A stretch of DNA of 25,647 nt from a virus, in the IMG/VR virus record IMGVR_UViG_3300045115_000268, positions 1 through 25,647 of that record; one strand, given 5' to 3'. Under the pieces are notes generated by a model that saw only the letters and a program-made list of their open reading frames with translations, searched no databases and was not told where the DNA came from. Position 1 is the first letter of the stretch, and each line of letters opens with the position of its first letter. A program made the position numbers and the translations under genes. This document shows positions 750 through 15,929 of this stretch, piece after piece.

Positions 750-2000
750 TCACGTCCGCCGTCCGAATAGCATGCCGAGGATGCCGCCGATTGGCGGGCC
801 GTCGGGCGCCTGGGTCACGGGCGGGGAGGGCGCCGGGTCGGGCTCGCCGTTGTGCAGGCCCGTCCGCTCGGCCACGACCCGGGCCCGGACGATGCCTTGA
901 GCCGCCAGGGCGTTGTAGAGGTTGAACCCCACGATCAGCACGGGCGCGACCCACGGCGGCAGGAAGCCCAGGAAGGCGCTCGCCGGCCCGAGGCCGGTCA
1001 GGTCGGTCGACCAGTTCTGGGCGAGGTACTGGAGCAGCCCCAGGCCCACGAGCACGATCTGCCAGACCGACGCCCAGGTGACCCGGTGCCCCTCGATCGC
1101 GATCGTCGAGCCCTGGTTGCGCAGGTCCGCGGCCGTGGTCTTCGCGCGTGCCTCCGGGATCGCGCGCCGGTTCGCGTCGTTGTCGAGCGCGGCCTTGGTC
1201 TCGGGGCCCCAGTGGCCGTCAACCGTGATGCCGGCCTGCGTCTGCAGCGCGATGATCGCGCCGGCCGTGGCCGGGCCCCAGCCCCCATCCACCTTGCCGA
1301 CCATGAAGTAGCCGAGGTTGCGAAGGCGCTTCTGGATGGCCTCGACCTCGTACCTGGCGAGCAACTGCTCGGCCCACTTCTCGTTGGAGACGGACATGCG
1401 GTCACCCTTCGGCTTGGTGGCGGGCGTGGCGGCCGGGGAGGGGGCGGTGACACCCAACGCCGCCTTGGCCCGCTTCAGGGCCGCCTTGCGGTCTGCCAGG
1501 CCATTCGTGCCGCCGTTGATCTTCCTGGTGACCGCCACGACGTCGTCGGCGTCGGCGAGCCGATTGATCCCGCGGGTCTCCCAGTACCAGAAGGCCCCGA
1601 GGAGGGCCCACGGGAACTCCTCGAGCTTCTGGGGCTCAGCCTCGAAGTCGGGCGCATCGTTGAGCCGCCCGCGGATCCAGTCGGTGAACTCGCGGTAGTT
1701 GGCCCGGCCGGTGACCTGCATGGGCCCGCGACCGCGGTACCGGCTCCCGTCGCCCGGCTGGGTGTTGCCGAGATCCTGGCGGCCCTCGTAGCGCTTCTGC
1801 GCCGCCGTCGGGCCCCAGATCTCCTTCGCGAACTGGAAGCCACCGCTCTCGTGGGACAGCTGCGCGAAGAAGTGCGCCTGCCGGAGCGGCGTGTTGATCT
1901 CGAAGGCGTTCGCCAGGGGGTTGAAGGTCTCTGCGATCTTCGCGGCGAGCGGCGCGCGGCCGCCACCGATCGTCCGCAGCTGCGCGGCCGTGATGGTCAT
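750..2000 (-). CDS. Modular endolysin: GH19 chitinase-type lysozyme, peptidoglycan-binding domain, C-terminal membrane segments
   Basis: A 416-residue cell-wall hydrolase expected to cut the glycan backbone of peptidoglycan at the end of the lytic cycle. Residues 1-183 match the GH19 phage endolysin pattern: HESGGFQFAKEIWG carries the two expected catalytic glutamates, E51 and E60, followed by RYRGRGPMQVTGRANY (87-102) and WYWETRGINRLAD (138-150). A Pro/Ala linker (184-200) leads to a PG_binding_1-type domain (about 213-272) with the DGGWGPAT and DGHWGPETKAAL repeats. Residues 311-330 and 350-368 are strongly hydrophobic and look like two membrane helices, followed by a Pro-rich tail. Membrane helices on the C-terminal side of an endolysin are uncommon. 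The ATG at 2000 begins a typical GH19 N-terminus; its Shine-Dalgarno is weak. It lies 29 nt after the preceding gene. Confidence 0.93.
   Translation of the reverse strand: MTITAAQLRTIGGGRAPLAAKIAETFNPLANAFEINTPLRQAHFFAQLSHESGGFQFAKEIWGPTAAQKRYEGRQDLGNTQPGDGSRYRGRGPMQVTGRANYREFTDWIRGRLNDAPDFEAEPQKLEEFPWALLGAFWYWETRGINRLADADDVVAVTRKINGGTNGLADRKAALKRAKAALGVTAPSPAATPATKPKGDRMSVSNEKWAEQLLARYEVEAIQKRLRNLGYFMVGKVDGGWGPATAGAIIALQTQAGITVDGHWGPETKAALDNDANRRAIPEARAKTTAADLRNQGSTIAIEGHRVTWASVWQIVLVGLGLLQYLAQNWSTDLTGLGPASAFLGFLPPWVAPVLIVGFNLYNALAAQGIVRARVVAERTGLHNGEPDPAPSPPVTQAPDGPPIGGILGMLFGRRT
1395..1410 (-). promoter_or_regulatory. Possible internal translation start inside the endolysin
   Basis: In-frame codon 202 is ATG (1395-1397), preceded by a purine-rich GAAGGGTGA (1402-1410) at a workable spacing. 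It falls exactly at the end of the Pro/Ala linker, so initiation here would give a 215-residue product with only the peptidoglycan-binding domain and the two membrane helices. Internal starts that release a binding-domain-only chain are known for some other endolysins. Whether it is used here is inference. Confidence 0.35.
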
Positions 2001-2395: not shown

Positions 2396-2934
2396 AGCAG
2401 GCTGACCTTCAGCTCGATGCTGATCGACCGGTAAGGCCAGGGCTCGGCGGTGATCCGGTAGGTGCCGGGCACGCGGAATCCGATCAGCGCGTCGCCGAGC
2501 GCGCCGTGCTGCTGCTCGCCCTTGAGCGGCCCGGTGAACGACAGCTTGCAGGGCGGCAGCCCGGGGATCACCGCCTCGACCCCGGGCTTGACCTTCAGGG
2601 TGGTCGGCACCTCGGTGAGGGTGGGCCGCTCCGTCAGCGTCGGTGCACCGTCCGCATCATCGACATAGTGGGTGTCCTCCTTGCCCACGCCGTCGCCCTC
2701 AATGATCCGGGTCCCCTGGATCTTCTCGCCCCGGATGAAGGCGACCCCCTGCTGGCCGGTGCCGGTGATCCGGCCGTTCTCGTCGTAGCGCACGAACTTC
2801 CGCACGTCGAAGAACTCCGGCGGCAGGGCGGTCGCCGGGTCGGGACCCGGGACCGGCACGATGACCGGCTCCTGGGACATATTCGGCTGCTTGATGGGCG
2901 GCGGCCAGACGGGTTCTGCGGGCTCGGTGCTCAT
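2392..2934 (-). CDS. Hypothetical tail-associated protein next to gpJ
   Basis: A 180-residue protein starting at an ATG that overlaps the gpJ stop as ATGA (2931-2934). The first 40 residues are Pro-rich and probably flexible. Then comes VRYDENGRITGTG (48-60), a YDxxGRI-type motif that I recall in small proteins encoded after phage tail fibres, and a likely beta-rich C-terminal domain (about 113-180) ending VPGTYRITAEPWPY followed by alternating hydrophobic residues. The combination suggests a small beta-sandwich domain. I recognise no enzyme motif. Its position directly after the receptor-binding protein and before another small protein suggests a fibre accessory, cap or chaperone. The function is inferred only from synteny and fold impression. 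Confidence 0.82.
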   Translation of the reverse strand: MSTEPAEPVWPPPIKQPNMSQEPVIVPVPGPDPATALPPEFFDVRKFVRYDENGRITGTGQQGVAFIRGEKIQGTRIIEGDGVGKEDTHYVDDADGAPTLTERPTLTEVPTTLKVKPGVEAVIPGLPPCKLSFTGPLKGEQQHGALGDALIGFRVPGTYRITAEPWPYRSISIELKVSLL

Positions 2935-5900
2935 TTGGACAGCTCCGTGACTTCGATGTAGACGCCGCCCAACCCGATGTTGTTGTCGTCGGCGATGGTA
3001 TAGAAGTAGCTGCCTGCTCCGATCTCCTCCGTGATCTGCAAATTGTGCCCGAGCGGGTACTTGTATGAGCCGCCGGCCCCCTGGTCCCAGCGAAACATGT
3101 AGTTGGCCGGGATGGCGAAGATCTCGATGTTGTTGCGAGAGACCCGCAGGTTGCCGGTGTTGAAGTTGGCCCCGACCTGCTGACCCGGGTTGCCGTGCCG
3201 GCCCGCCTTGACCAGCACCTTGCCGGTGCCCCGGACGTAGATGCTGACCCCGGCGTTGTTGCCGCTGCTCGACGCGCTCACCACTGTGGAGACGGCGTTG
3301 TTGACGAGGCGCAGGTTGCCGATCGTGGCCTCGCCGATCTGGGCCTCGGCGACGATCAGCCGGCCGCCCGACAGCTCGCTCGCCGTGATCGCGTTGGCGC
3401 CGATCCGATCGGCCGAGATGGTGCGCGCCCACAGCGCGCCGCCGTGGAAGCCGCCCCCGTTCATGATGAGGGTGCCCCACTGGTCCCACATCGCGAGCCC
3501 GTAGGGCTGCATGCGGTCACCGTAGGCCACGTCGGAGATCTTGCCGAGGACGACGCGGGTCTGGCCGTTGTCGTCCTTGAGGATCAGCCGGCGGTTGGAG
3601 GCGTTGCTGTCGAGCTGGAAGTTCGCGTTGCCGATGCTGATGAGGCCGGTGTTGAGCGTGCCGGCGCCGATTTTGTCGGCCGTGACGTTGCCAGCGGCGA
3701 TCTTGTCGGCCGTGATCTGCCCTGCACCGATGTGGTCCGCGTTGATGGCGCCGACCGCGATCTGGGCCGCCTGGATCGAGCGGGTGACAATGCGGTCGCC
3801 GTCGATGATCGTGTTGCCGTAGAACGCGATCAGGCCGGCGCTCGACCCGTAGCCCGAGTAGTAGGCCAGCGGGACGAAATCGGGGTTACCGTACTGGGCC
3901 GACCAGTTCCCGTTGGTTTCGTCGTAGACCCGCAGGTAGCCTTCCCCAGGAAACCACCCGATCGTGGTGTGGCCGTGGCACTGACGCCCGCCCCCTTCGA
4001 CCCATTGAGCCTGGGTGTAGCCGTTGCTGTCGACGTAGGTGATGTAGCCGCCGCCCCACGACACGTAGCGGTCGCTCTTGCGCACCTGAATGGCCAGATC
4101 GATGATGCCGATCCCGCGCTGCGAGGCCCGCAGATGCTTGGCCTCGATCGCGTTCACCGCGATCTTGTCAGCTGTCACGTTGCCCGCCGCAATGTGCTCG
4201 GCCCAGACCTGCCCCGCCTGGATGTGCCCGGCGGTGATATTTCGACCCGCGATATGCTGCGCCCAGATCTGACCGCTCGCGATCCTGTCCGCCGTGATCG
4301 AGTACGCCGTGAGGCGGTTCGCATGCAGGCTGTCGGTGGCGATGAAGCCGCCATCGATCACGGTGAGGGACTGCGGCTGCCAAGGCGAGCACGTCTGCTG
4401 ACCCGCCTGGGCCACCGCGAGGTAGGGGCACAGGAAGAAGCAGTAGGGGTCGGCCTGACCCTTCCAGATCGCGCGGAAGATCGCGTAGATGTAGGTCGCA
4501 CCGGGCGGCGCATTGACGACCAGCGTCATCCGCGGCCACCCGTCGAGGCTGGTGCGGCCCTGCCAGTCGTCAATCACGTTCGAGTAGTCGTCCCGAATGC
4601 TGTTCCCGTTGCCGTCGAGCCACGAGATGATGAGCTGCGACTTGCAGCGGTGCGTGCTGGCGTAGGCCGAGAACTCGTAACGCTGGTAGGGCTGGCACGG
4701 ATACTTGTGATCCCAGCCAGTCGTGAGACGCCGCTTCAGCGTGTAGTCGGCGACGACGTTGTTGCCCGGCGTGTCGGTGCGGTGGATGCGGGCCGAGAAG
4801 GTGCCCGGGATGCACCAGTAACCGTCCTGGCCGAAGTCCTGCGGCGCGATGCCGTCCGAGAACCAGCCCGCCTGGAAGCCGTCGATGCCGTTGGTGAAGT
4901 CGGAGTTGTGCAGCATGTTGCCCGAGTTGAGCCCCACGCCGATCTTGTCCGCGGTGATCGCCCCGGCGGCGAGCTGCGAGGTGCCGACCGCGCCGGCCGA
5001 GATTTTCGCCGCGGTGATCGCATTCGCGGCGATCTTGTCGGCCTCGACGGCGCCCGCGCTGATCTTGGAGGCGATGATGGCGCCGTCCACGATCATCATC
5101 GCGTTGGCGGCCTTGCGGGCCTGGACCTTGCCCCAGTAGGCCCAGTTGCCGCCGTCAGACGGCTTGTCGATCTGGAGCAGCACCTGGAACTTGTGGATGC
5201 CCTCCGGGATCGTGACCTGTCCGGAGAGGTCGGTCCAGGCATTCTTGACGTCGGTGTAGGCCGCACCCGGGTAGCCGGCATTGCCGCCGGCCCCGTCCGC
5301 CCAGATCATCATCAGGTTGGCGCGCTGGGTGTTGGTGTTGTAGACGCGCGCCGACAGGTTGATGGCGTCGCCCGGCCGGACCATGATCCATTCCGAGTAG
5401 GCGCAGTCCCGCTTGTTGGACTTGCAGCGGTGGTAGCCGCCGCTGTCGCCGCCATTGGCCGTGTCGACCTCCGTCGTCCCGCCAGGACTGACGTACCAGT
5501 TGTCGAGGGACGCAGCGTTGGTGGACGGGTTCTGGAAGTCCCCGTTCGACAGCATGTTGGAGCTGTCGGTCAGCACCAGCCGCGAGGCGAGGATCGAGCC
5601 GGCCACGATCTCGCGGGAGGTGATGACCCCGGCGCTGATGTGCGTGGCCGTGATCGCATTGGTGGCGATCTCGCTGGCGGTGATGGCGCCCGCGGCGATC
5701 TCAGTCGCCGTGATGGTGTCGACCGCGATGTGTCCTGCGCCGATGGTGCGGGCGATGATGTGGCTGCCGCTGATCTGGTTGCCGGCGATGTGCTCCGCCC
5801 AGATCTGTCCGGCGACGACGTGCCCGGCGGAGATCTGTCGGGCCGCGATCTTGTCTCCGGTGATGGTGCTGCCGGCGATCTCGCGAGCCGTGATGACCCC

Positions 5901-8900
5901 GGCCGAGATCTTCTCAGCGGTGACCGCATTGGCCGCCAGCTCGCTGGTGGAGACCGCTCCCGCCGCGATCTGGGACGCGGTGACGCTGTCGGCCGCGAGC
6001 TGGCCCGAGGTGATCGAGTTCGCGACGATGCGGTCCGCCGAGATGGTGCCGGCGGTGATCCGGCTGCCGTGCAGGCTGTTGGTGACGATGTTGCCCCCGT
6101 CGATCGTGGTGACGCCCGGGTCGACGTAGGGCGAGGTCTGGGTCGCTCCGGTGAAGGCCGGCGCGTACATCATCGCCGCGAAGAAGCAGTAGGCGTCGTT
6201 CGCGTTGATCTGGTAGGCGCGCAGGATGATGAAGAACTGCGTTGTGCCCACCGGGGCCGCGGCGACCACGGTGGCCTTGCTGAAGTTCTTGTAGGGCGTC
6301 TCCCCGCTCTGGCTGGTGGTGACCTCGTTGCTCTGCGTATAGGTGATGACCGCGCCGCTGCTGTTGAGCCACGCCACGTAGAACGTGCCCTTGCAGCGGT
6401 GGGCCGACATGCAGACCGAGAACTCATAGGTGACCCCGGCCGTGGCCGGGTAGTTAGCCAAGCTGCCGTCCGTGAGCACGCGCTGGTGAACCACGTCCCC
6501 GTAGGTGGAGCCGATCGTCGCGGCGGTGGCGGAGTTGCGCAGGGCCACGGCCCGGAAGCCGGTTGGCGCCCACGTGCCTGGGTTCTCCAGGTACATGCTG
6601 GACGTGCCCATTGGCCACGTCCCACCCATCGAGAAGCCGCGCAGGTTCTGATCCCCGCGCGGGTTGTAGGCCATGTTGGCCGAGGCGATGGCGAGCTTGG
6701 ACGCCACCACGCTGTTGGCGGCGAGCCGGTCGGTGGTGATGGCCCCGTCCACGATCATCTGGGCCGAGGCCGCGCGGCGGGCGCTCACCCGGCCCCAGTA
6801 GGTGGACAGAGTGCTGTCCTGCGAGGTGCGCTCGCACTGGAGCAGGACCCGGAACCTCGAAGTGCCGGCGGGGAGGGTGTAGCGCCCCTCGATTCGCACC
6901 CACGCGCTCTTGACGTCGGTCCAAGCGACGACGTCGAAGGTGATACCGGCCCCGCTGCCGTTGACCGTCTGGAGGATGGCGTTGGCCCGTCCCGCGTGCT
7001 GGTTGTGAACCGTCGCCGAGAAGTAGATGACGTCGCCTTCCTGGCCCGCGACGTAGTTCGTCCAGGCCATGTCGCGGGCGTTGGACCTCAGCCGGTAGGC
7101 ACCGCCCGGGTCGCCGCCACCAATGAACTCCACACCCCCGACGCTGCCGGGGTTGACCGAGCCCCAGCCGTCAAAGTTCCCCGTAGCGAAGTCGCCGTTG
7201 AGGATCATGTTGGAGATGTCGGAGAGGGTCAGCTTCGAGGCGACGATGGCCCCGGCGGCGATCTCCCGCGCCGTGATCGCCCCAGCGTCGATCTTGCCGG
7301 CGGTCACCGCATTGGCCGCGATCTTGTCGGAGGTGACGTTGCCCGCCGCGATGTGCTCGGCCCAGATCTGGCCGGCCTGAACGTGCCCGGCGGCGATCTG
7401 TCGGGCCGCGATCTTGTCGCCCGTGATGGTGTTGCCGGTGATCCGGTTCCCGTGCAGCGAGTTGGTGAGGATGCTGCTGCCCTCGATAATAGTCGTGCCC
7501 GGGTCGACGTAATCCGAGACCTCGGTGGCCCCGGTGACGGTCGCGGCGACCATCAGCGCCGACCAGAAGACGTAGGGTCCGTCTCCGGCGTAGGGGGCCT
7601 CCGCGCGCAGGATGATGTAGAACCCGGTCGTCGCGGCTGGCGCCACACCGATCGCCTTGGATTTACCGAAGTCCCGATAGGCATAGTTGTTGTTGTGCTG
7701 GTTGTTGACGATCTGGTTGCCCGTGACGTAGCTGATGACGCTACCGTCCGCCCGGGTCCAGGCGATGAACAGGCGGGCGGCGCAGCGGTGGGCCGAGACG
7801 CAAGCCGAGACCTCGTAGGTGACGCCAGCCGTGGCCGGGTACATCCGCGTGGTGCCCGCCGCGTCGATCAGGTAGGCGTTGAAGTCGGTATAGGTGCTCC
7901 CGATCTGCGCGACGGTCGCAGGGGTGTTGCTGGCCAGCGACTTGAACCCGGACGGCGCCCACTCGTTGTTGACATACATGCCGGTGTGGTTGGGCCACCC
8001 TTGCGCGTGCACGAACCCGCGCGTTCCCTGGTCGTAGCGCGGGTTGTAGGCCATGTTGCTGCTGGCAATGGCCAGCTTCGAGGCCGCGATCGACCCGGCG
8101 GCGATCTCGCGTGCCTGGATGGTGCCGGCGACGAGGTTCGAGCCCTGGATCGTGTTGGCGGCGATCTTCGCGCCCGTGATGGTCGAGCCGGCGATCTCGT
8201 TCGCCGTGATGGTGCCGGCGGCGAGGTTGCCGGCGGTGATGGTCTGGCCGGCGATCTTGTTGCCGGTGATGGTGTTGGCCGCGATCTTGTCGGCCGTGAT
8301 AGCACCATCGACGATCAACTGGGCCGAAGCCGCGCGGCGGCACTGCACCCGGCCCCAGTAGGTGAGGTTGCCCCCTTCTCCGGGGCGCTCGGTCTGGAGC
8401 AGGACGCGGACCTTCTGCGTCCCGGCCGGGACCTTGATGCGCCCCTCCAGGCGCACCCACTGGTTCTTCAAGGTCGTTGAGGCAACGGTATAGTACCCGC
8501 CGATCGCGTTGTCGGCGTAAGCCGTCGCGATCATCAGGTTGGCCGTGCTGGTGTCGGTGTTGTAGCACCACGCCGAGAGGTAGAGGTCGTCCTCCGAGTT
8601 CACCCCGATGTAGTTCGACCACGCCTGATCGCGGAAGTTGGAGCGCAGCCGAAACCTGCCGGGAGGGTCGCCATTGCCCTGCGGCCCTTCGATGTAGGAC
8701 ACCCCGTTACCGGGGACGTAGGTCCAGCCTGCGGTGGAGGCCGCGTCGTTCTCGGTGAACTCCCCGTTGAGCACCATGTTGCTGATGTCTGTGACGGTCA
8801 GCTTCGAGGCCGTGATCGCTCCGGCCGCGATGGCGCCCGCGGTGACGGAGCCCGCCGCGAGCTTCGCGGTCGAGATCGCCCCATCGGTGATCTGGGTGCC

Positions 8901-11900
8901 GGTGATCTGGCCGGCGAGCTTCGCGGCCTGGAGCCCGGCGATCTGGGCATCGGTGAGCTGCCCCGTGACCTTGGTCGCCGCGAGCCCTGCGATCTGGGCG
9001 TCGGTGAGCGTGCCGGTGATGTCGGTGGAAGGCACCGACGCCACGAAGGCGGTGCCGGTGTAGCGGTAGACCTTGCCGTCCGTGGTGTTCATCACCAGCC
9101 GCGGACCGGTGTAGCCGGTCGCCGAGGGCAGGGTCGTGACGATCGAGGCCGGCTGAATGTTGCTGGCGAACAGGGCCGCCGTGATCGCCCCGGCCGTGAT
9201 CTGGTTGGTGTTGATTGTGCCGATCAGCTTGGACGCATCCATGCCGGCGATCTGGGTGTTCGCCAGCTGGCCCGTCACCTTCGCGGCGTCGATCGCCGCG
9301 AGTTGGGCGTTGGTCAGCTGCCCCGAGATCTTCGTGGCCGCCAGGGCGGCGATCTGGGTGTCCGAAAGCTGGCCGGTGATCTTGGTCGCCGCGAGGTCCG
9401 CGATCTGGGCGTTGGTCAGCGTGCCGGTGATCTGGGTGGCGCCGATCGTGTCGACCTGGGCCGCCACCACCTTGCCGATCAGCTTGCCTGCCGATATCCC
9501 GGCGAGCTGGGTGTCGCTCAGCGTCCCCGCCACCTTCGCGGCGTCGAGCGAGGCGATCTGCGACGAGGTGAGCTGGGTTGAGATCTGGAGGTTGGTGATG
9601 CTCTCGATCTGCGACGCCACCACCTTGCCGACGAGCTTCGCCGACGAGATGGCCGCGAGCTGCGCATCGGTGAGCTGGCCCGACACCTTGGTGGCGGCGA
9701 GCGCCGCGATCTGGGCATCCGTGATCTGGCCCGAGATGTTCGCGGCTGGCGTGAACTTCGTGTAGGCGCTCGCGGTCGCGTCCCAGCGGTAGAGGAACCC
9801 GTCCGACGAGAGGGTGACGAACTGCCCCGTCTTCGTCGCCGGTAGGGTCGCCACCACCCGCGGGACTTCGAGCGACGTCGCGATCTTGGTCGCGTCGATG
9901 ATGTTGTTGGCGATCATCGCCGCGGTGATCGAGGCCGACGTCGCGGTGACGGCTGCGGTGTAGTCGCCCAGCGTGCCCGAGCTGTTGACCGGGCGCGCCC
10001 AATATTTGCGCGAGCCGCCGGCCGCGCGCAGGCCGCTGTCCACGTAGAAGGTCAGCGGCACCGGCACCTTCGCCAGCAGCGTGGTCGGAGTGGTAGCGGC
10101 GGTGGCGCCGTACCAGATCTCGACGTAGGCGAGGTCCGCGTCGGTCGGGTTGGTCCACGAGATGGACGCGCTCTCCACCGCGGCGACCGCGGTGAGGCTG
10201 GTGACGGCGCCGGGCTTGGTCAGGTTCTTGGCGGCGACGATCTGGACGACGGGGGACCAGCCCGAGTAGGCGCCTCGGGTGGCGTTCACCGACCGGACCC
10301 TGACGGCGTAGTTCACGCCGGGCTTCAGGTTGCGCCACGTGTGGCGGGTGCTGTTCAGGAACTGGCGGTTGGTCCAGAACGTGAGCGCGTTGAGGGGATC
10401 GCCCTCCAGGATCTCCGCCTCGTAGAAGCCGAAGTTGCTGTTGCTGACCAGGCTCCAGGTCGCCGTGATCTCGGCTGCACTGCCCCCCGTCGCGGTGGTC
10501 ACCAGCGCGGTCGAGAGGGCCAGGTTGGTCGGGATGTCCGGCGCCTGGGTGTCGATCGGGAAGGTGTTCGTGCGGACCGAGATCTCGCCCGAGATGTTGA
10601 GCCCGGCGGGGTCCTTGCCCAAGGCGTCGTAGCAGGCGAGCCGGATGTAGTAGGTGGTGTCCGGGTCGGCCTTCAGCAGCGTGAAGGTGACCAAGCCGTC
10701 GAAGACGGGCGCGGTGGTGAGCGGGTTGAAGCTGGACGTCTTCGACAGCCAGATCAGGCAGCCGCTGAAATCCGGGTCGGCGGGCGCGGTGTAGCTGACG
10801 CCGATGCTCTCGGACGTCCACACGGCCGTCGGGATGACCGCTGCCGGTGCCGGGTTCGACACCACCACGGCGCTGGACACACCCTCGCGGCCGATCGCGT
10901 CCCTGGCCGAGACCGCCACCCGGAAGCGGCGCCGCGGCCCGCCGTTGTTCCGGTTCAGCTCGTACTCGTAGGTGTAGGTCTCCTCGGTGACGGTCTCCTG
11001 GTGCAGCAGCGCGAGGGTGTCGGCGTCGGTGATGCGCACCACGAACGTGAGCGGGTACGGCGCGAGCTGGTTGGGCCAGGAGACGTCCCATTCCAGGGTC
11101 GCGGCCCTGCCGGCGAAGGTGGTACCGCCGCCCTTGATCTGCAGCCCCGTGATGGTCGGGATCTGCTGGCCTTCCCACCCGGTGACCGTGAACACCAGCT
11201 GCGAGGTGTCCGAGAGCGCGCCGTTCACGCCCTCCGCCTGGACGATGAAGGTCCACTCGCCCGGGGTGGCGTCCAGGAACTCCACGGACGTGCTGGTGGT
11301 CCGCGGCAAGGTCACCACGCTGCCCGAGGCGCGGATCGCCGTCACGAAGTAGGCCACGCTGTTGAAGGGCTGGCCCGCGGTCCAGGAGAAGATCACCGAC
11401 TGGCGCGGGATGCCGTTCTCGAAGTAGGTGCTCTGGCGCGCGGTGAGGTTCGTCGGCGCCAGGACGACGCGCGGGAACTCCGACACCTCCAAGGGCACGA
11501 AGGGCGCGCCGTCGTCGACCGCCGGGAAGATCGAGGGCTCGTGCTGCAGGCCCGTGATCTCGAAGATGTGCGGCTCCACCTGCTTCCGGCTCACCACCGT
11601 GAACAGCTGGCTGACGATGTCGCCCTCGATCTGCCACACGGCGGCTGGGTCCGGCACCGACGGCAGGGCGGTCGCGAGCGCGAGGACGGCCAGGTCCGCG
11701 CCGCGGGTGGTGATCGCCCGCTCCACCGGCTTGCCGTCCGGCATCAGGACGGTGATCGAGTAGCTGGTCCCGCTGTTGAGGGTGACCGGCTTGTCGAGCA
11801 CGAGGCTGCTCGCCGTGCTGCTGGCCTCCAGGCGACCGCCCATCTCGATGTTGGCGATCGAGGGGTCCTGGATGGCGATCAGGTCCCCCGGGCGCACGCG

Positions 11901-13466
11901 CGCGTGATCGAAGCCGGCCCGGTAGGTGACGATCTGGGTCGCGTAGAGCTCGGTGAGGAGCGTCCAGAGGCCGTGCCGGTGCGCCTGCCCGCGCGAGGTG
12001 CAGCCCAGCAGGTCGATCTTGGTCGGGTTGTAGCCGTAGCGGGCGATGCCCTGCGCGTCTTCGATGACCTCGATCGTCTGCTTGTAGAGGTTGTCCGGGT
12101 CGTTCCAGGCCACCATCGCCACGGTGTGGCGCGCCTTCTGGCCCGAGCTGCTGTAGCTGAACTCGCCGTCGATGACGTTCTCGGGGACGACGATCATCTC
12201 GACGTCGCGCGGCCGGTCCTGGCTGGCGGTGACCGTGCCCGAGCTCCAGTAGGCCATGCCGCGGAAGATCTGCGCGACCAGCTGCAGCACGTCGTAGGCG
12301 TCCTGCTGGGACGCGATGACCCCGTTGAAGCGGAAGCGCGGCTCCTGCCCGCCGCGGCCGTCCGAGACCATCACGTCGCAGTAGCGACCGATCTCGTAGA
12401 GGGTCCATTTGTCGATCGCATCGGGCGTGATGTACTCGCCGAGGCCGAAGCGGTCGTTCTCCAGCAGCAGGTAGAAGACCCACGCCGGGTTGTCGCACAC
12501 CTCCTCCTTGAAGGTACCGTCCCAGAGGCCCGTGTAGGTGCGGGTGCCCACGTTGTAGTTCGTGGGCACCTTCATCTTGATCCCGTCGACCAGATAGGTG
12601 CGCGCGGGAACGCTGGAGCCGAACGAGCTCGCGTCCGCGGTCAGGCCCACCAGGGCCGACCACGGATAGGAGAACTTGCTGTCGTTGAGCCGGGTCAGCG
12701 AGTGGAAGATCAGGTCGCTCTGGACCGTCCACTGCTGCTGGCTGTTGTTGAAGCCGTCGGTGTCCTGGGTGAGCCGGGTGATCCGCACCTGCCAGGGCGC
12801 CGAGCTGCCGCTGGGGTTGCGCGGCAGCGTGATCTCGTGGGAGCGGAAGTACGGCGAGGTGTTCTTGCCGTTGATGGTCTGGTCGCCGATCTCGTTGACC
12901 CACGGACCGCCGCTGTAGCGGGCCTCCACCCGGTACTGCAGGATGTTGGCCCGCACCGACCCGTCGCTCTTGGCGATGTAGAGGGCCGGGATCTGGATCG
13001 TGACGCGCGCGCGGTCGGTCTCGGGTTCGGCGATCGAGGCGGAGACCGGCGTGGCCTGATTGACCTTGATCCCAACGTCCTGGTGCGCCTGCACGCCCGG
13101 GTAGCCGGGCATGTAGGTCTGGTCGGGGGTGCCGACCCGGAACTCCGCCGTGATCCCCTTGAAGTTGAAGGTGTTGTCGGGGTTCTGGACCGGGACGTCG
13201 TTGAAGTAGATGCCTTTGAGACCACCCACGACGCCGACGATCTCGCCCTCGCCGAGCAGGTCGATGATCGAGACCTTCGCCGTCGAGAAGAGGGTGTCCG
13301 GCGAGCCCGAAGCCGCGCCGCCCGACTTGCCGCCGGAGCTCTTGGCGCCGCGGATCCTGGTCGCGACCAGGTCGCCTCGATCGGGGCCAGCGACGGGCTC
13401 CGCCCAGTCGTCCAGGCGTGCGTCATCCTCCGGTGACCCGGATCCGAAATCGGTCTTGTCGGTCAT
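2931..13466 (-). CDS. J: Giant gpJ-like tail tip / host-specificity protein, 3511 residues
   Basis: The lambda gpJ counterpart, forming the tail tip and central fibre and probably the main receptor-binding protein. It is about three times the length of lambda J. Residues 1-660 are the conserved tip part (TLFSTAKVSIIDLLGEGEIVG near 58; FYLLLENDRFGLGEY near 330). About 669-1180 looks like five fibronectin-III-type domains (starts near 669, 769, 872, 975, 1082). Then follow ten tandem 17-residue repeats (1246-1415) between two short LYRW-type modules, and three copies of a two-domain beta-rich cassette, A then B (1563-1989, 2086-2450, 2637-3036), joined by 10-residue repeats. An extra domain (3114-3226), more decads and a distinct C-terminal domain (about 3398-3511) finish it. 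Start ATG 13464-13466 lies 7 nt after gpI; the stop overlaps the next gene. The DNA stays open in other frames as well, but only this frame is coherent. Confidence 0.95.
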   Translation of the reverse strand: MTDKTDFGSGSPEDDARLDDWAEPVAGPDRGDLVATRIRGAKSSGGKSGGAASGSPDTLFSTAKVSIIDLLGEGEIVGVVGGLKGIYFNDVPVQNPDNTFNFKGITAEFRVGTPDQTYMPGYPGVQAHQDVGIKVNQATPVSASIAEPETDRARVTIQIPALYIAKSDGSVRANILQYRVEARYSGGPWVNEIGDQTINGKNTSPYFRSHEITLPRNPSGSSAPWQVRITRLTQDTDGFNNSQQQWTVQSDLIFHSLTRLNDSKFSYPWSALVGLTADASSFGSSVPARTYLVDGIKMKVPTNYNVGTRTYTGLWDGTFKEEVCDNPAWVFYLLLENDRFGLGEYITPDAIDKWTLYEIGRYCDVMVSDGRGGQEPRFRFNGVIASQQDAYDVLQLVAQIFRGMAYWSSGTVTASQDRPRDVEMIVVPENVIDGEFSYSSSGQKARHTVAMVAWNDPDNLYKQTIEVIEDAQGIARYGYNPTKIDLLGCTSRGQAHRHGLWTLLTELYATQIVTYRAGFDHARVRPGDLIAIQDPSIANIEMGGRLEASSTASSLVLDKPVTLNSGTSYSITVLMPDGKPVERAITTRGADLAVLALATALPSVPDPAAVWQIEGDIVSQLFTVVSRKQVEPHIFEITGLQHEPSIFPAVDDGAPFVPLEVSEFPRVVLAPTNLTARQSTYFENGIPRQSVIFSWTAGQPFNSVAYFVTAIRASGSVVTLPRTTSTSVEFLDATPGEWTFIVQAEGVNGALSDTSQLVFTVTGWEGQQIPTITGLQIKGGGTTFAGRAATLEWDVSWPNQLAPYPLTFVVRITDADTLALLHQETVTEETYTYEYELNRNNGGPRRRFRVAVSARDAIGREGVSSAVVVSNPAPAAVIPTAVWTSESIGVSYTAPADPDFSGCLIWLSKTSSFNPLTTAPVFDGLVTFTLLKADPDTTYYIRLACYDALGKDPAGLNISGEISVRTNTFPIDTQAPDIPTNLALSTALVTTATGGSAAEITATWSLVSNSNFGFYEAEILEGDPLNALTFWTNRQFLNSTRHTWRNLKPGVNYAVRVRSVNATRGAYSGWSPVVQIVAAKNLTKPGAVTSLTAVAAVESASISWTNPTDADLAYVEIWYGATAATTPTTLLAKVPVPLTFYVDSGLRAAGGSRKYWARPVNSSGTLGDYTAAVTATSASITAAMIANNIIDATKIATSLEVPRVVATLPATKTGQFVTLSSDGFLYRWDATASAYTKFTPAANISGQITDAQIAALAATKVSGQLTDAQLAAISSAKLVGKVVASQIESITNLQISTQLTSSQIASLDAAKVAGTLSDTQLAGISAGKLIGKVVAAQVDTIGATQITGTLTNAQIADLAATKITGQLSDTQIAALAATKISGQLTNAQLAAIDAAKVTGQLANTQIAGMDASKLIGTINTNQITAGAITAALFASNIQPASIVTTLPSATGYTGPRLVMNTTDGKVYRYTGTAFVASVPSTDITGTLTDAQIAGLAATKVTGQLTDAQIAGLQAAKLAGQITGTQITDGAISTAKLAAGSVTAGAIAAGAITASKLTVTDISNMVLNGEFTENDAASTAGWTYVPGNGVSYIEGPQGNGDPPGRFRLRSNFRDQAWSNYIGVNSEDDLYLSAWCYNTDTSTANLMIATAYADNAIGGYYTVASTTLKNQWVRLEGRIKVPAGTQKVRVLLQTERPGEGGNLTYWGRVQCRRAASAQLIVDGAITADKIAANTITGNKIAGQTITAGNLAAGTITANEIAGSTITGAKIAANTIQGSNLVAGTIQAREIAAGSIAASKLAIASSNMAYNPRYDQGTRGFVHAQGWPNHTGMYVNNEWAPSGFKSLASNTPATVAQIGSTYTDFNAYLIDAAGTTRMYPATAGVTYEVSACVSAHRCAARLFIAWTRADGSVISYVTGNQIVNNQHNNNYAYRDFGKSKAIGVAPAATTGFYIILRAEAPYAGDGPYVFWSALMVAATVTGATEVSDYVDPGTTIIEGSSILTNSLHGNRITGNTITGDKIAARQIAAGHVQAGQIWAEHIAAGNVTSDKIAANAVTAGKIDAGAITAREIAAGAIVASKLTLSDISNMILNGDFATGNFDGWGSVNPGSVGGVEFIGGGDPGGAYRLRSNARDMAWTNYVAGQEGDVIYFSATVHNQHAGRANAILQTVNGSGAGITFDVVAWTDVKSAWVRIEGRYTLPAGTSRFRVLLQCERTSQDSTLSTYWGRVSARRAASAQMIVDGAITTDRLAANSVVASKLAIASANMAYNPRGDQNLRGFSMGGTWPMGTSSMYLENPGTWAPTGFRAVALRNSATAATIGSTYGDVVHQRVLTDGSLANYPATAGVTYEFSVCMSAHRCKGTFYVAWLNSSGAVITYTQSNEVTTSQSGETPYKNFSKATVVAAAPVGTTQFFIILRAYQINANDAYCFFAAMMYAPAFTGATQTSPYVDPGVTTIDGGNIVTNSLHGSRITAGTISADRIVANSITSGQLAADSVTASQIAAGAVSTSELAANAVTAEKISAGVITAREIAGSTITGDKIAARQISAGHVVAGQIWAEHIAGNQISGSHIIARTIGAGHIAVDTITATEIAAGAITASEIATNAITATHISAGVITSREIVAGSILASRLVLTDSSNMLSNGDFQNPSTNAASLDNWYVSPGGTTEVDTANGGDSGGYHRCKSNKRDCAYSEWIMVRPGDAINLSARVYNTNTQRANLMMIWADGAGGNAGYPGAAYTDVKNAWTDLSGQVTIPEGIHKFQVLLQIDKPSDGGNWAYWGKVQARKAANAMMIVDGAIIASKISAGAVEADKIAANAITAAKISAGAVGTSQLAAGAITADKIGVGLNSGNMLHNSDFTNGIDGFQAGWFSDGIAPQDFGQDGYWCIPGTFSARIHRTDTPGNNVVADYTLKRRLTTGWDHKYPCQPYQRYEFSAYASTHRCKSQLIISWLDGNGNSIRDDYSNVIDDWQGRTSLDGWPRMTLVVNAPPGATYIYAIFRAIWKGQADPYCFFLCPYLAVAQAGQQTCSPWQPQSLTVIDGGFIATDSLHANRLTAYSITADRIASGQIWAQHIAGRNITAGHIQAGQVWAEHIAAGNVTADKIAVNAIEAKHLRASQRGIGIIDLAIQVRKSDRYVSWGGGYITYVDSNGYTQAQWVEGGGRQCHGHTTIGWFPGEGYLRVYDETNGNWSAQYGNPDFVPLAYYSGYGSSAGLIAFYGNTIIDGDRIVTRSIQAAQIAVGAINADHIGAGQITADKIAAGNVTADKIGAGTLNTGLISIGNANFQLDSNASNRRLILKDDNGQTRVVLGKISDVAYGDRMQPYGLAMWDQWGTLIMNGGGFHGGALWARTISADRIGANAITASELSGGRLIVAEAQIGEATIGNLRLVNNAVSTVVSASSSGNNAGVSIYVRGTGKVLVKAGRHGNPGQQVGANFNTGNLRVSRNNIEIFAIPANYMFRWDQGAGGSYKYPLGHNLQITEEIGAGSYFYTIADDNNIGLGGVYIEVTELSK
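4360..5558 (-). repeat. gpJ cassette copy 3 (A3 + B3)
   Basis: A3 covers residues 2637-2797, opening NMLSNGDF and closing YWGKVQARKAANAMMIVDGA. B3 covers about 2850-3036, opening NMLHNSDF and containing RYEFSAYASTHRCKSQLIIS. The two are joined by about five decads. B3 is the most diverged B copy but keeps the xAxxHRC core and the Tyr/Phe-rich end. The opening NGDF...W pattern and beta-strand-like alternation suggest a carbohydrate-binding jelly-roll fold, which is inference. Confidence 0.75.
5571..6050 (-). repeat. Run of 16 in-phase 10-residue shaft repeats in gpJ
   Basis: Residues 2473-2632 read as 16 consecutive decads of pattern x-x-[I/V]-[T/S]-A-x-[K/E/H/Q/R]-I-A-A, for example NAVTAEKISA and STITGDKIAA, without an insertion. 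Shorter runs of the same repeat occur near residues 1724-1800, 1995-2084, 2245-2263, 2798-2848 and 3040-3112. Such low-complexity periodic stretches in tail fibres usually form a trimeric beta-structured shaft; that structural role is inferred. Confidence 0.85.
6115..7211 (-). repeat. gpJ cassette copy 2 (A2 + B2)
   Basis: A2 covers residues 2086-2243 (opens NMILNGDF, closes YWGRVSARRAASAQMIVDGA). B2 covers about 2264-2450 (opens NMAYNPRGDQ, contains YPATAGVTYEFSVCMSAHRC, closes SPYVDPG). A2 and B2 are separated by only about two decads, against about eight in copy 1, so the linker length differs between copies. Confidence 0.8.
7500..8780 (-). repeat. gpJ cassette copy 1 (A1 + B1)
   Basis: A1 covers residues 1563-1723 (opens NMVLNGEF, closes YWGRVQCRRAASAQLIVDGA). 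B1 covers 1804-1989 (opens NMAYNPRYDQ, contains YPATAGVTYEVSACVSAHRC, closes SDYVDPG). B1 and B2 share openings, the AHRC core and the VDPG closing, so the cassette was duplicated as a unit within the gene. Confidence 0.8.
9222..9731 (-). repeat. Ten tandem 17-residue (51-nt) repeats in gpJ
   Basis: Residues 1246-1415 read as ten uninterrupted units of 17 residues with consensus G-Q-L-T-D-A-Q-I-A-A-L-x-A-x-K-[V/I]-x, for example GQLTDAQLAAISSAKLV and GQLSDTQIAALAATKIS. Two more units occur just after the second LYRW module (about residues 1476-1515). The period differs from the decads that follow. Likely a helical or beta-structured fibre segment. Confidence 0.88.
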
Positions 13467-13473
13467 GAGGCCC

Positions 13474-14037
13474 TTACGGGGTGGGGAGGCCGTTGCTGTC
13501 GGACGTGGTGACCCCGGCGGAGATCGTCTTCGGGTTCACCATGCAGCGGCCGATGATGAGCGGGACGCAGTCCCCCTCGTTGATCGTGTTGTCGGCGCCG
13601 TTGAACATGTAGCTGCGGCGCTGCTGCTCGTTCTTCTTCTTCGGGGTGAGGAGCGAACTCACCCCCTGGAGCGCGATCGAGGCGCCGATGCCGATCACCC
13701 AGCCCGGCCCGCCCATCCACCACGTGGCCGCGGCGATCACCGTGCCGACCAGGATCTTGCCCAGCGACGCCCCGCGCCCGCCGCGGCCACGCACCACCGG
13801 CACGATGTGCAGGTCGCCGGCCGGCAGCCCGAAGGTGATCAGGCTCTCGTCGAGATTCCACCCGCGCTGCGGGCTCTTGCCGAGCGTGATGCGGAAGCGC
13901 CCCTCGGTGATCGCGCGCCGGAAGCCCGGCAGCTGCACGCCGAGCGCGTGGCAGGCCTCGCTGATCGAGCGAACGTCGAGCCGGAATTCGCTGCCGAATT
14001 CCTGCGCGAGCGAGCCGTAGAGCCTGATCGTCCTCAC
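13474..14037 (-). CDS. I: Tail assembly protein I-like
   Basis: A 187-residue counterpart of lambda gpI, needed for assembly of the tail tip around gpJ. The N-terminal part (about 1-85, RTIRLYGSLAQEFG then ITLG and LPAGDLHIVPVV) has the ubiquitin-like layout of the lambda tail I family. A glycine-rich hydrophobic stretch (about 91-130, ILVGTVIAAATWWMGGPGWV) follows, typical of this family. The C-terminus ends with a Cys-containing segment (GDCVPLIIGRCMVNP, 156-170). The start is GTG at 14035-14037, overlapping the gpK stop as GTGA. The same frame stays open further upstream (to 14769), but those codons lie antisense-like within gpK in another frame and do not resemble protein I. gpJ starts 7 nt downstream. 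Confidence 0.88.
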   Translation of the reverse strand: MRTIRLYGSLAQEFGSEFRLDVRSISEACHALGVQLPGFRRAITEGRFRITLGKSPQRGWNLDESLITFGLPAGDLHIVPVVRGRGGRGASLGKILVGTVIAAATWWMGGPGWVIGIGASIALQGVSSLLTPKKKNEQQRRSYMFNGADNTINEGDCVPLIIGRCMVNPKTISAGVTTSDSNGLPTP

Positions 14038-14855
14038 GGCGCCCAGTCCTCCGGCAAATCCTTGTGGCGGACGATGAAATTCAGCTTCGGCTTCCACAGC
14101 GAGGCGGGGTCGCGCTTCGAGGGGCAGTCCATCAGGTGGTGCAGGATCAGCCCGTCGCCGATGTAGATGCCGGCGTGGTTGAAGACGGGGCTGCGGATCT
14201 TGCAGATGAAGCAGTCGCCCGGCAGCAGCAGGCCGCGCGAGACCCGCTCGGGATCCGCCGACGCGAACCCGGCCCTGGCGAACCCGTCCATGTAGAGGTC
14301 GGCCTGCGGCTCCCCAGGGCGCGGCTCCCACCATTCGACGTCGCGCACGAAATCCGGGAGCTCGATCCCGGCCACATCCCGGTGCCAGTCCTGGATGAGC
14401 GAGTAGCAGTCGTCGATCCCGTGCCGGAACTCGCGGCCGACCAGCGGCGGGCGCGGCACGCCCCGGCCCCACCAGAACGGGTCGGTGGCGCCGGTCGACA
14501 GGCAGAGCGAGATGCCCCACGGCACGCCCGTGTCGAGCTGACCCTGCATGTCGGCGCCCGAGGGGCAGTCGAGCGGCGGCTGGTCGCGCCCGGTCTCCGG
14601 GTCCTTCACCGAGGTGTGCGAGTGCAGCACCGCCGCGTAGGCCTGTCCCGAGACCGCGTGCACCTCGTCGGGGTCCAGCTCGAATTCCATCAGCGGGTCG
14701 TCGGCGATGTTGCGGCAGGCCGCGTAGCTGCCGTCCTCGAGCACCAGGCCGCCGGCCTCGCGCGGCCACTCGCGGGCGGCGTGCGCCTTGTGGGCGTCGA
14801 CCGCGGCGCGGAAGCGCGCGTTCATGCCGTCGTCAAACGCGAACAGAGCCGACAC
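14034..14855 (-). CDS. K: Tail protein K-like: JAMM metalloprotease plus NlpC/P60 peptidase
   Basis: A 273-residue two-domain protein matching lambda gpK. The N-terminal JAB/JAMM domain shows E33 (REAGGLV), the zinc-binding HSH at 78-80 and PSGAD with S99 and D102. The usual spacing between HxH and S-x-x-D is about seven residues, but here it is 18, so there is an extra loop (about residues 82-96). The C-terminal NlpC/P60 domain has C150 (DDCYSLIQDW) and H227 (NHAGIYIGDG) as likely catalytic residues. The domains may help tail-tip assembly or cut cell-wall peptides at infection. I chose the GTG at 14853-14855 because of a perfect GGAGG upstream; this makes a 23-nt overlap with gpL. An ATG at 14825 is the alternative, with no good ribosome site. 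Confidence 0.92.
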   Translation of the reverse strand: MSALFAFDDGMNARFRAAVDAHKAHAAREWPREAGGLVLEDGSYAACRNIADDPLMEFELDPDEVHAVSGQAYAAVLHSHTSVKDPETGRDQPPLDCPSGADMQGQLDTGVPWGISLCLSTGATDPFWWGRGVPRPPLVGREFRHGIDDCYSLIQDWHRDVAGIELPDFVRDVEWWEPRPGEPQADLYMDGFARAGFASADPERVSRGLLLPGDCFICKIRSPVFNHAGIYIGDGLILHHLMDCPSKRDPASLWKPKLNFIVRHKDLPEDWAP

Positions 14856-15564
14856 CGGGAAATCCTCCGAAGGGGAGCTGCGCGTGCTGGCCGAAGCGCA
14901 CCTTGCAGCAGGTCTCCACGTGGCGGCTCGGGAAGTCGTTCTCCGGCGTCGTGGGGTTGCCGTCGCTGTCGTAGCTCTGGCCGCCGGTGTAGGGGCACTT
15001 GACCCGGTCGTAGACGAAGACCCTCGCCGTGGCGTCCCAGCGCCTGTAGCGCCACGTGCACACGGTCTTGATGATCTCCCGGGCCGGCAGCTCCCGGCCC
15101 TCCTGGTCCATGTCTGAGGCCAGCGTCCACTCGATCACCCTCTTGGTGTGGCGGGTCTTCTGGTCGAAGCGGTAGACGTCCTCCGCCCAGGCGGCCTCGG
15201 CGGAAGCCGACGGCGCACCGTCAAGGAACTGGGCGAAGGTGGTGATGCGGCGCAGCCGCGCGCGCACGAGATCCTGGTAGAGCCGGGACGCCGAGGACAT
15301 CAGGCGAGTGGCATTCGTGACCGTAATCCGCGGCCGCGGCATGGCGCCCTGGCCGGTCAGCTCGAAGCCCTCCGCCTTCACGTCGAGCGGCGTGTAGGTG
15401 ATGCCCCGGAACTGCACCGGCCCGCGCGCCTTGTCGGCCTCTGCCGTGAACGCGAACTGCTGGTTCACGCCGATCGGAGTGAGGTCGATGATGTAGAGGG
15501 CGACGAGGTCGCCCGGGGTGAGGCTCTGGCCAGCGCGGATGATCGCTGCGTTCGGCGCCGTCAC
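14833..15564 (-). CDS. L: Minor tail protein L-like (probable iron-sulfur protein)
   Basis: A 243-residue counterpart of lambda gpL, a tail-tip component. The N-terminal half has the family pattern (LVALYIIDLTPIG near 20-32; FRGITYTPLDVKAEGFELTG near 52-71; PRPRITVTN near 76-84). The only four cysteines are C169, C190, C219 and C220, all in the C-terminal third, in TVCTWRY, VKCPYTG and ETCCKVRFG. Lambda gpL is known to bind a 4Fe-4S cluster through four C-terminal cysteines, so the same is expected here. The start is GTG at 15562-15564, overlapping the gpM stop as GTGA. It overlaps gpK by 23 nt at the other end. Confidence 0.92.
   Translation of the reverse strand: MTAPNAAIIRAGQSLTPGDLVALYIIDLTPIGVNQQFAFTAEADKARGPVQFRGITYTPLDVKAEGFELTGQGAMPRPRITVTNATRLMSSASRLYQDLVRARLRRITTFAQFLDGAPSASAEAAWAEDVYRFDQKTRHTKRVIEWTLASDMDQEGRELPAREIIKTVCTWRYRRWDATARVFVYDRVKCPYTGGQSYDSDGNPTTPENDFPSRHVETCCKVRFGQHAQLPFGGFPGVGSVRV
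14864..14868 (-). promoter_or_regulatory. Shine-Dalgarno GGAGG for gpK
   Basis: GGAGG lies 8 nt upstream of the GTG at 14853-14855, inside the end of the gpL gene. It favours the longer gpK over an ATG 30 nt downstream that has no such site. Confidence 0.65.
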
Positions 15565-15929
15565 GGGTCGAAGTTCTCCTCGAAGAGACCGGAGATCGTG
15601 GAGTGCAGCCGCTCGGGGTGCTCAACCGACCATTCCGAGCAGATGAACTGCCGAGCCACGGTCTCGTAGGGCAGGAGATAGGTGAAGGGCAGGTAACCCT
15701 TCCGGCTCAGCAGGAAGTCATCCAGGATCTTCAGCTTGTCGGCCGGCAGCAGGATGGTCCTGTACTGGAAGTTGCGGGCGACGGGGTTGACCCCATCGCC
15801 CGACCGCTGGCTGTAGCGTCCGCCGAAGTTGGCGGTCAGGACGGCCGCCTTGGTCGGCTTCACGACGCCGGGTGCGATCGGCCCGTAGGGACCGATCGAG
15901 AGGGTCGGGAACGCCGGGAAGTTGGGCAT
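15561..15929 (-). CDS. M: Minor tail protein M-like
   Basis: A 122-residue protein at the position and with the size of lambda gpM (Phage_min_tail family), a tail-tip subunit that joins after gpH. The family features are a beta-rich middle (TANFGGRYSQRSGDGVNP, 33-50), LLPADKLKILDDFLLSRKG (60-78), and a C-terminal part with FICSEWSVEHPERLHSTISG (94-113) followed by an acidic end. The ATG at 15927-15929 overlaps the previous stop as TGATG, and its own stop overlaps the gpL start as GTGA, so it is tightly coupled on both sides. Confidence 0.9.
   Translation of the reverse strand: MPNFPAFPTLSIGPYGPIAPGVVKPTKAAVLTANFGGRYSQRSGDGVNPVARNFQYRTILLPADKLKILDDFLLSRKGYLPFTYLLPYETVARQFICSEWSVEHPERLHSTISGLFEENFDP

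Follow-up and report, generated by a model that had tools for sequence, protein, structure and literature searches.

A lambda gpJ-type central tail fibre with an array of predicted carbohydrate-binding domains that appear to be exchanged one at a time

The C-terminal residues of gpJ, the central tail fibre of phage lambda, bind LamB (PMC7291167), and in lactococcal and streptococcal phages the evolved Dit/Tal proteins and BppA provide examples of carbohydrate-binding module (CBM) insertions on a tail-tip protein (PMC7291167). The central fibre of mycobacteriophage Douge is known to contain CBM-fold domains, more than one per protein: the CFP-NTD of gp20 (residues 165-321; PDB 8zdo/8zdp/8zdq), when expressed alone, binds M. 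smegmatis and its glycans (PMC13033339). Recent domain exchange has also been described in phage tail and receptor-binding proteins (PMC10684548). Here we analyse a gpJ-type fibre gene carried by a 25,647-base virus record (IMG/VR IMGVR_UViG_3300045115_000268; the whole stretch is referred to below as the window). We consider it probable that the distal half of this protein is built of six single CBM-type jelly rolls on repetitive linkers, which would bind host polysaccharide by avidity and be exchanged one at a time.

Sequence comparison identifies the product of this gene, a single open frame of 3511 amino acids (aa), as a long central tail fibre of the lambda gpJ type. It matched the PHROG family central tail fiber J (phrog_31; E 4e-244), the F2-pyocin fibre (PDB 25vf; E 3e-126) and lambda gpJ (PDB 8iyk, 1132 aa; E 3e-116), the last through a homologous N-terminal core (residues 45-762). 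The same kinds of tail genes precede it as in lambda, namely tape measure, minor tail and gpI-type genes, and the model of its C-terminal 471 aa, although poor (mean pLDDT, the predicted local distance difference test score, of 65), has the gpJ-LamB fibre 8xcj as its best Foldseek match. In contrast to lambda gpJ, the window protein is three times longer, and no CBM-type array between core and tip has been reported for lambda. The core is followed by fibronectin-type domains, with an additional fn3 domain at residues 992-1069, then by a 17-aa repeat zone, the array of A and B domains, a C region and the tip (Table 1).

The initial annotation had placed three A and three B copies in this array, and all of them were found with their motifs. 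A1, A2 and A3 open with NMVLNGEF, NMILNGDF and NMLSNGDF (bases 8780, 7211 and 5558), continue to YWGRV, YWGRV and YWGKV, and all contain VDGAI; the core of B1, B2 and B3 reads AHRC, AHRC and THRC, and YE.S residues are likewise conserved in B. A fourth HRC, at residue 2679, falls within A3 and looks like a chance occurrence. The copies had been described as diverged to differing degrees and the linkers as unequal, which is borne out: the A-B linkers are 74, 14 and 46 aa long, and in full-length local alignments identity was about 53% for A1-A2, 46% for A1-A3 and 45% for A2-A3, and 48%, 29% and 32% for B1-B2, B1-B3 and B2-B3 (43-53% and 26-48% for A and B copies, respectively, when aligned end to end). 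B3 is therefore far more distant than B1 and B2 are from each other, and the three pairs are unequally related. All alignments scored far above shuffled sequences (z-scores 20-60; observed scores 125-460, best shuffled 67), so similarity confined to the linkers can be rejected. Since DNA identity among the copies is merely 46-65%, the duplications must be old. The A and B profiles also aligned with each other (hhalign probability 91%), and the two families may be distant relatives. An iterated A profile began to gather B domains; clean profiles of seven and fifteen sequences were used for all counts.

The A domains belong to a recognisable type. The Pfam family CBM_4_9 (PF02018) matched the whole protein in three stretches (E 4e-13, 50.4 bits), and individually A1 and A2 exceed its cut-off of 25.9 bits, with A3 alone just below it (Table 1). 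The A profile found the CBM22 pair of Xyn10C (E 7e-9) and Douge gp20 (E 2e-8), the latter at residues 216-320, which fall within the glycan-binding CFP-NTD. Unlike the window protein, gp20 is 878 aa long, combines a stem and tip with two such domains (the NTD and the CTD), has no gpJ-type repetitive-linker array, and belongs to a phage with a mycobacterial host. A search of 50,697 phage records with A1 returned 18 distant matches, among them the J proteins of a Rhizobium and an Acinetobacter phage; a tblastn search of the same records with B2 returned nothing at E 1e-3. B2 and B3 had no Pfam match at E 10, B1 matched only DUF4438 (E 0.19), and the B profile gave no convincing sequence match in the PDB (best E 0.05).

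Structure prediction indicates that the two families nevertheless share a fold. An AlphaFold2 model of the A2-B2 stretch, made with 48 sequences, contains two separate beta-sandwiches (mean pLDDT 88); the linker between them, at about model residues 150-180, has low confidence. Predicted A2 resembles CBM16, CBM4 and CBM22 structures (Z about 16, 15 and 14), consistent with a jelly roll of that type, and predicted B2 resembles the C-terminal domain of CBA120 TSP4 (Z 15.6) and HpiC1 (Z 13.4). The top Foldseek match across both domains is the tandem CBM22 structure 4xup (E 9e-13); the best viral matches over both, in BFVD models, are the host specificity protein J of DSS3_VP1 (E 3e-20) and an uncultured Caudovirales protein (E 4e-24), which are merely 18-19% identical to the gpJ domains. 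As modelled, the array thus comprises six independent domains of two families with a common jelly-roll fold: A is predicted to be a CBM4_9/CBM16/CBM22-type module, and B, an unnamed CBM-like family, to take the same broad fold, from which it would at most act like a CBM. The proposal that A and B are independent domains is upheld by this model and by relatives that carry only A or only B, which rules out their being inseparable parts of one unit. Neither outcome that the initial annotation had named as refuting it, a lack of independent domains or motifs limited to the linkers, occurred.

Further gpJ arrays came from a search of 111 genomes in the genus group of Methylobacterium gnaphalii, where the B family is present in 11. 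One of these (G035, 8.8 Mb) holds seven gpJ genes, of which one is divided between two frames; three have the lengths (3535, 3300 and 2914 aa) seen in the related arrays L005, L006 and L013. With domain types clustered at 70% identity, the order is B0-B1-B2-B3 in the 3026-aa protein, B0-B1-B4-B3 in the two of 2913 and 2914 aa, B0-B1-B2 / B5 in the split gene, B9-B0-B1-B2-B5 in the 3252-aa protein, B0-A6-B10-B7-B8 in that of 3535 aa and B0-A6-B1-B7-B8 in that of 3300 aa. Near neighbours differ in one or two slots, by replacement, insertion or loss of single domains. The split gene (L095; G035:C7:6334000-6344500) is interrupted after its third B and before its fourth by an in-frame TAG, which leaves frames of 2160 and 753 aa; it probably belongs to a decaying prophage.

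Two of these changes were mapped. In the 3535/3300 pair (L097 and L098), the third domains are 53% identical, with a synonymous divergence (dS) of 0.80, whereas their neighbours are 92-98% identical (dS 0.08-0.10). The L098 version instead resembles the second domain of another gpJ (L099), with 92% identity. Fast selection is disfavoured as the cause, because dS is raised along with its non-synonymous counterpart (dN), and the pattern argues for replacement. Along the DNA, the linkers flanking the swapped domains are mostly 0.8-1.0 identical and the domains themselves about 0.5-0.7, with some patches near 0.8 in the second half of the domain in the 3535/3300 swap; the 2914/3026 pair behaves likewise around the third domain, and has a single 0.56 patch within a linker. 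These comparisons suggest that the unit of exchange is one domain and not an A-B pair, and that the linkers may be the sites of recombination. Compared with the domain shuffling described previously (PMC10684548), exchange here would proceed by slot in one array, within one host genome, with linkers as conserved joints.

The linkers have properties suited to such a role. Aliphatic residues recur with a period of five (an excess of 3.4-fold at lag 5 and 3.3-fold at lag 10, computed on gpJ linkers other than A1-B1), and the linker DNA is composed of 30-nucleotide (nt) repeats; because of this periodicity at both levels, the linkers could serve as homology for exchange. Linkers B3-C and B1-A2 have in common a 105-nt stretch that is 83% identical (repeat family D5). 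Against solved structures, a linker matched only orf16 of 9eg4 (E 0.011), which is not informative. The repeats of the zone upstream of the array differ from those of the A/B linkers. A module of about 45 aa (LP..TG....DGK.YR type) is duplicated in gpJ, at residues of about 1203-1246 and 1440-1487 (window 9729-9860 and 9006-9149, respectively, minus strand), the second copy interrupting the upstream zone; it lies outside the A/B arrays, and by eye L005 has three copies and L006 two.

These results are consistent with a model in which each A or B domain would bind host-surface polysaccharide weakly, the array would hold by avidity, and the tip would then seek the final receptor. Homologous exchange hosted by the conserved 30-nt-unit linkers would replace, insert or remove one domain with the frame kept, each slot swap would change fibre specificity, and the ABABAB order of the window would be one state of a changing array. 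Because the protein is homologous to lambda gpJ at its N-terminus and the Douge fibre is matched by the A profile within its glycan-binding domain, a multivalent glycan-binding fibre is in our view the best reading of the array. By analogy with the Douge domain, A, and probably B, would bind host polysaccharide, and the domains probably help the phage to grip its host. If gpJ is trimeric like lambda gpJ, it is fair arithmetic that a fibre would present up to 18 such domains. Compared with Dit/Tal proteins, which have one or two inserted CBMs, gpJ has a long in-line array; what it would add to known systems is the length of that array, a B family that has no name yet, and an exchange that proceeds slot by slot, at conserved linkers, between the gpJ genes of one host genome. 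More tentatively, the repetitive linkers may form a dedicated exchange platform, through which co-resident prophages of one host would trade single glycan-binding domains and so assemble central fibres combinatorially from slots held in common.

Several points weigh against the avidity and single-domain exchange model. In the Pfam and PDB profile searches B matched no known CBM family by sequence, and its fold also serves non-lectins such as the enzyme HpiC1. The structure predictions are of single chains, with the trimer assumed from lambda gpJ. The deep A branches are unresolved in the trees. The linker boundaries of exchange come from two swaps only, and are blurred by the domain patches of 0.7-0.8 and the single 0.56 patch in a linker. 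Finally, the seven prophages reside in the same host and may have a recent pool in common, in which case rates elsewhere could be lower.

The strongest competing explanation, though an unlikely one, is that the domains have a chiefly structural role, lengthening and shielding the fibre as spacers or stiffeners, with the C-terminal tip doing the binding. This would accord with the LamB-binding C-terminal residues of lambda gpJ (PMC7291167) and with the conserved C region and tip jelly roll that come after the array, and fold by itself reveals no function. However, domains are replaced by very different versions while their linkers stay similar, which fits binding diversity better, and the closest solved phage relative, the Douge fibre, binds glycans.

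The initial annotation had instead proposed that the array may be a multivalent adhesin made by internal duplication of an A-B cassette. Its multivalent part stands, in that the copies are CBM-type domains in a lambda gpJ-type fibre for which multivalent glycan binding is the best reading; the triplicated cassette does not. Two rounds of duplication within gpJ, giving a three-fold adhesin, would account for the perfect ABABAB order, for the sister relationship of B1 and B2 (support 100/98), for the closeness of A1 and A2 in identity (about 52%) and for the long similar stretches common to the linkers. However, in gpJ proteins collected from viral contigs and genomes, approximately unbiased (AU) tests rejected a single clade of the three A copies (p-AU 0.008) and of the three B copies (p-AU 0.019), so that the copies are not one another's closest relatives. 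A3 clusters with the A domains of L005 and L006 (98/97), to which it is 63% identical, compared with 44-46% to A1 and A2; B3 lies in a weakly supported group of 11 rows (82/90) containing the last B of other arrays, and a clade of ten last-B domains was not rejected (p 0.09). The A1/A2 grouping itself is unresolved (45/28). Nor is the A-B pair constant elsewhere: the order is ABBBAB in L004, BABBB in L005 and L006, BBBABB in L017, BBBBB in L012 and BBBB in L013, and in the L020-L039 group the end of the array mostly reads B then A, as in ABA or BBA. Moreover, the gpJ changes in G035 touch one or two slots each, and strict A-first alternation of three A and three B domains would arise by chance once in 20 orders. 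Since both three-copy clades are rejected, and A3 and B3 group with other phages, the array is not a triplicated cassette, and the orders in relatives, the AU tests and the seven arrays of G035 all reject A-B as a fixed unit. From the phylogeny, B1/B2 (perhaps with A1/A2) appear to be a lineage-specific duplicate and A3 and B3 to be older, with counterparts in other phages; A1B1 and A2B2 are possibly, and at most, a duplicated pair. Cassette duplication is thus improbable as an account of the whole array, and for A3B3 it appears largely refuted.

The least probable proposal is that the array binds a target other than the host, for instance polysaccharide of plants or of the extracellular matrix, which would keep the phage in the habitat of its hosts. 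In its favour, the folds most similar to the domains are those of CBMs for plant polysaccharides (CBM4, 16 and 22), and relatives occur in genomes of Rhizobium and Methylobacterium, which are plant-associated; but a ligand cannot be predicted from fold similarity and a central fibre normally touches the host cell.

Beyond the array, the C domain is common to several relatives, and the tip, which L004, L012 and L017 have and L005, L006 and L013 lack, therefore appears to be another optional module. Its TNF-like match is weak (Z about 9, many rows tied) and was not used as evidence of function. Among the neighbouring genes, that for the tape measure may encode a wall-degrading domain as well, since its product has further matches to transglycosylase and baseplate-hub PHROGs. 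A 416-aa protein encoded after gpJ (window 750-2000, minus strand) matches PHROG chitinase and endolysin families (E 8e-65 and 6e-63). An open frame of 1761 codons antisense to gpJ (window 3195-8480, plus strand) is most likely a by-product of high G+C and repeats, and no gene.

Table 1. Features of the gpJ gene and its neighbours in the window. Residue i of gpJ begins at base 13466-3(i-1). HMM, hidden Markov model; ORF, open reading frame.
Feature	gpJ residues	Window position	Strand	Basis
gpJ-type central tail fibre gene		2931..13466	-	ORF, PHROG and PDB profile matches
Conserved gpJ core	36-872	10851..13361	-	Pfam FNIII-A_GpJ and Phage-tail_3, PHROG, PDB matches
Upstream repeat zone, ~17-aa (51-nt) units of type ITGQLTDAQIAALAATK		8787..9749	-	Repeat family D3; periods 51, 102, 153
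A1, CBM_4_9-type beta-sandwich	1562-1725	8292..8783	-	PF02018 27.9 bits; HMM
Linker A1-B1, 74 aa, 5-residue-period repeats (ITADKIAANT type)		8070..8291	-	Sequence, repeat analysis
B1	1800-1997	7476..8069	-	Alignment, HMM, tree
Linker B1-A2, 87 aa		7215..7475	-	Sequence
A2	2085-2245	6732..7214	-	PF02018 26.6 bits; predicted fold
Linker A2-B2, 14 aa		6690..6731	-	Low pLDDT in A2-B2 model
B2	2260-2458	6093..6689	-	Predicted fold; without Pfam match
Linker B2-A3, 177 aa		5562..6092	-	Sequence, repeat analysis
A3	2636-2799	5070..5561	-	PF02018 25.2 bits; trees
Linker A3-B3, 46 aa		4932..5069	-	Sequence
B3, last B ahead of C region	2846-3040	4347..4931	-	Alignment, HMM, tree
Linker B3-C, 67 aa		4146..4346	-	Repeat family D5
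C domain	3108-3225	3792..4145	-	Comparison with relatives; moderate-confidence beta domain
C-terminal tip, predicted jelly-roll knob (TNF-like)	about 3392-3511	2931..3293	-	Model, comparison
Tail assembly protein		in 13474-14769		
Minor tail genes		14833-15564 and 15561-15929		
Tape measure		16797-20987	-	

The B family merits a Pfam entry. If the domains are exchanged as we propose, the central fibre would be able to acquire, drop or exchange its binding domains singly with the reading frame intact, and the seven versions of gpJ carried by a single bacterial genome would constitute a natural experiment on which domain sets host range.

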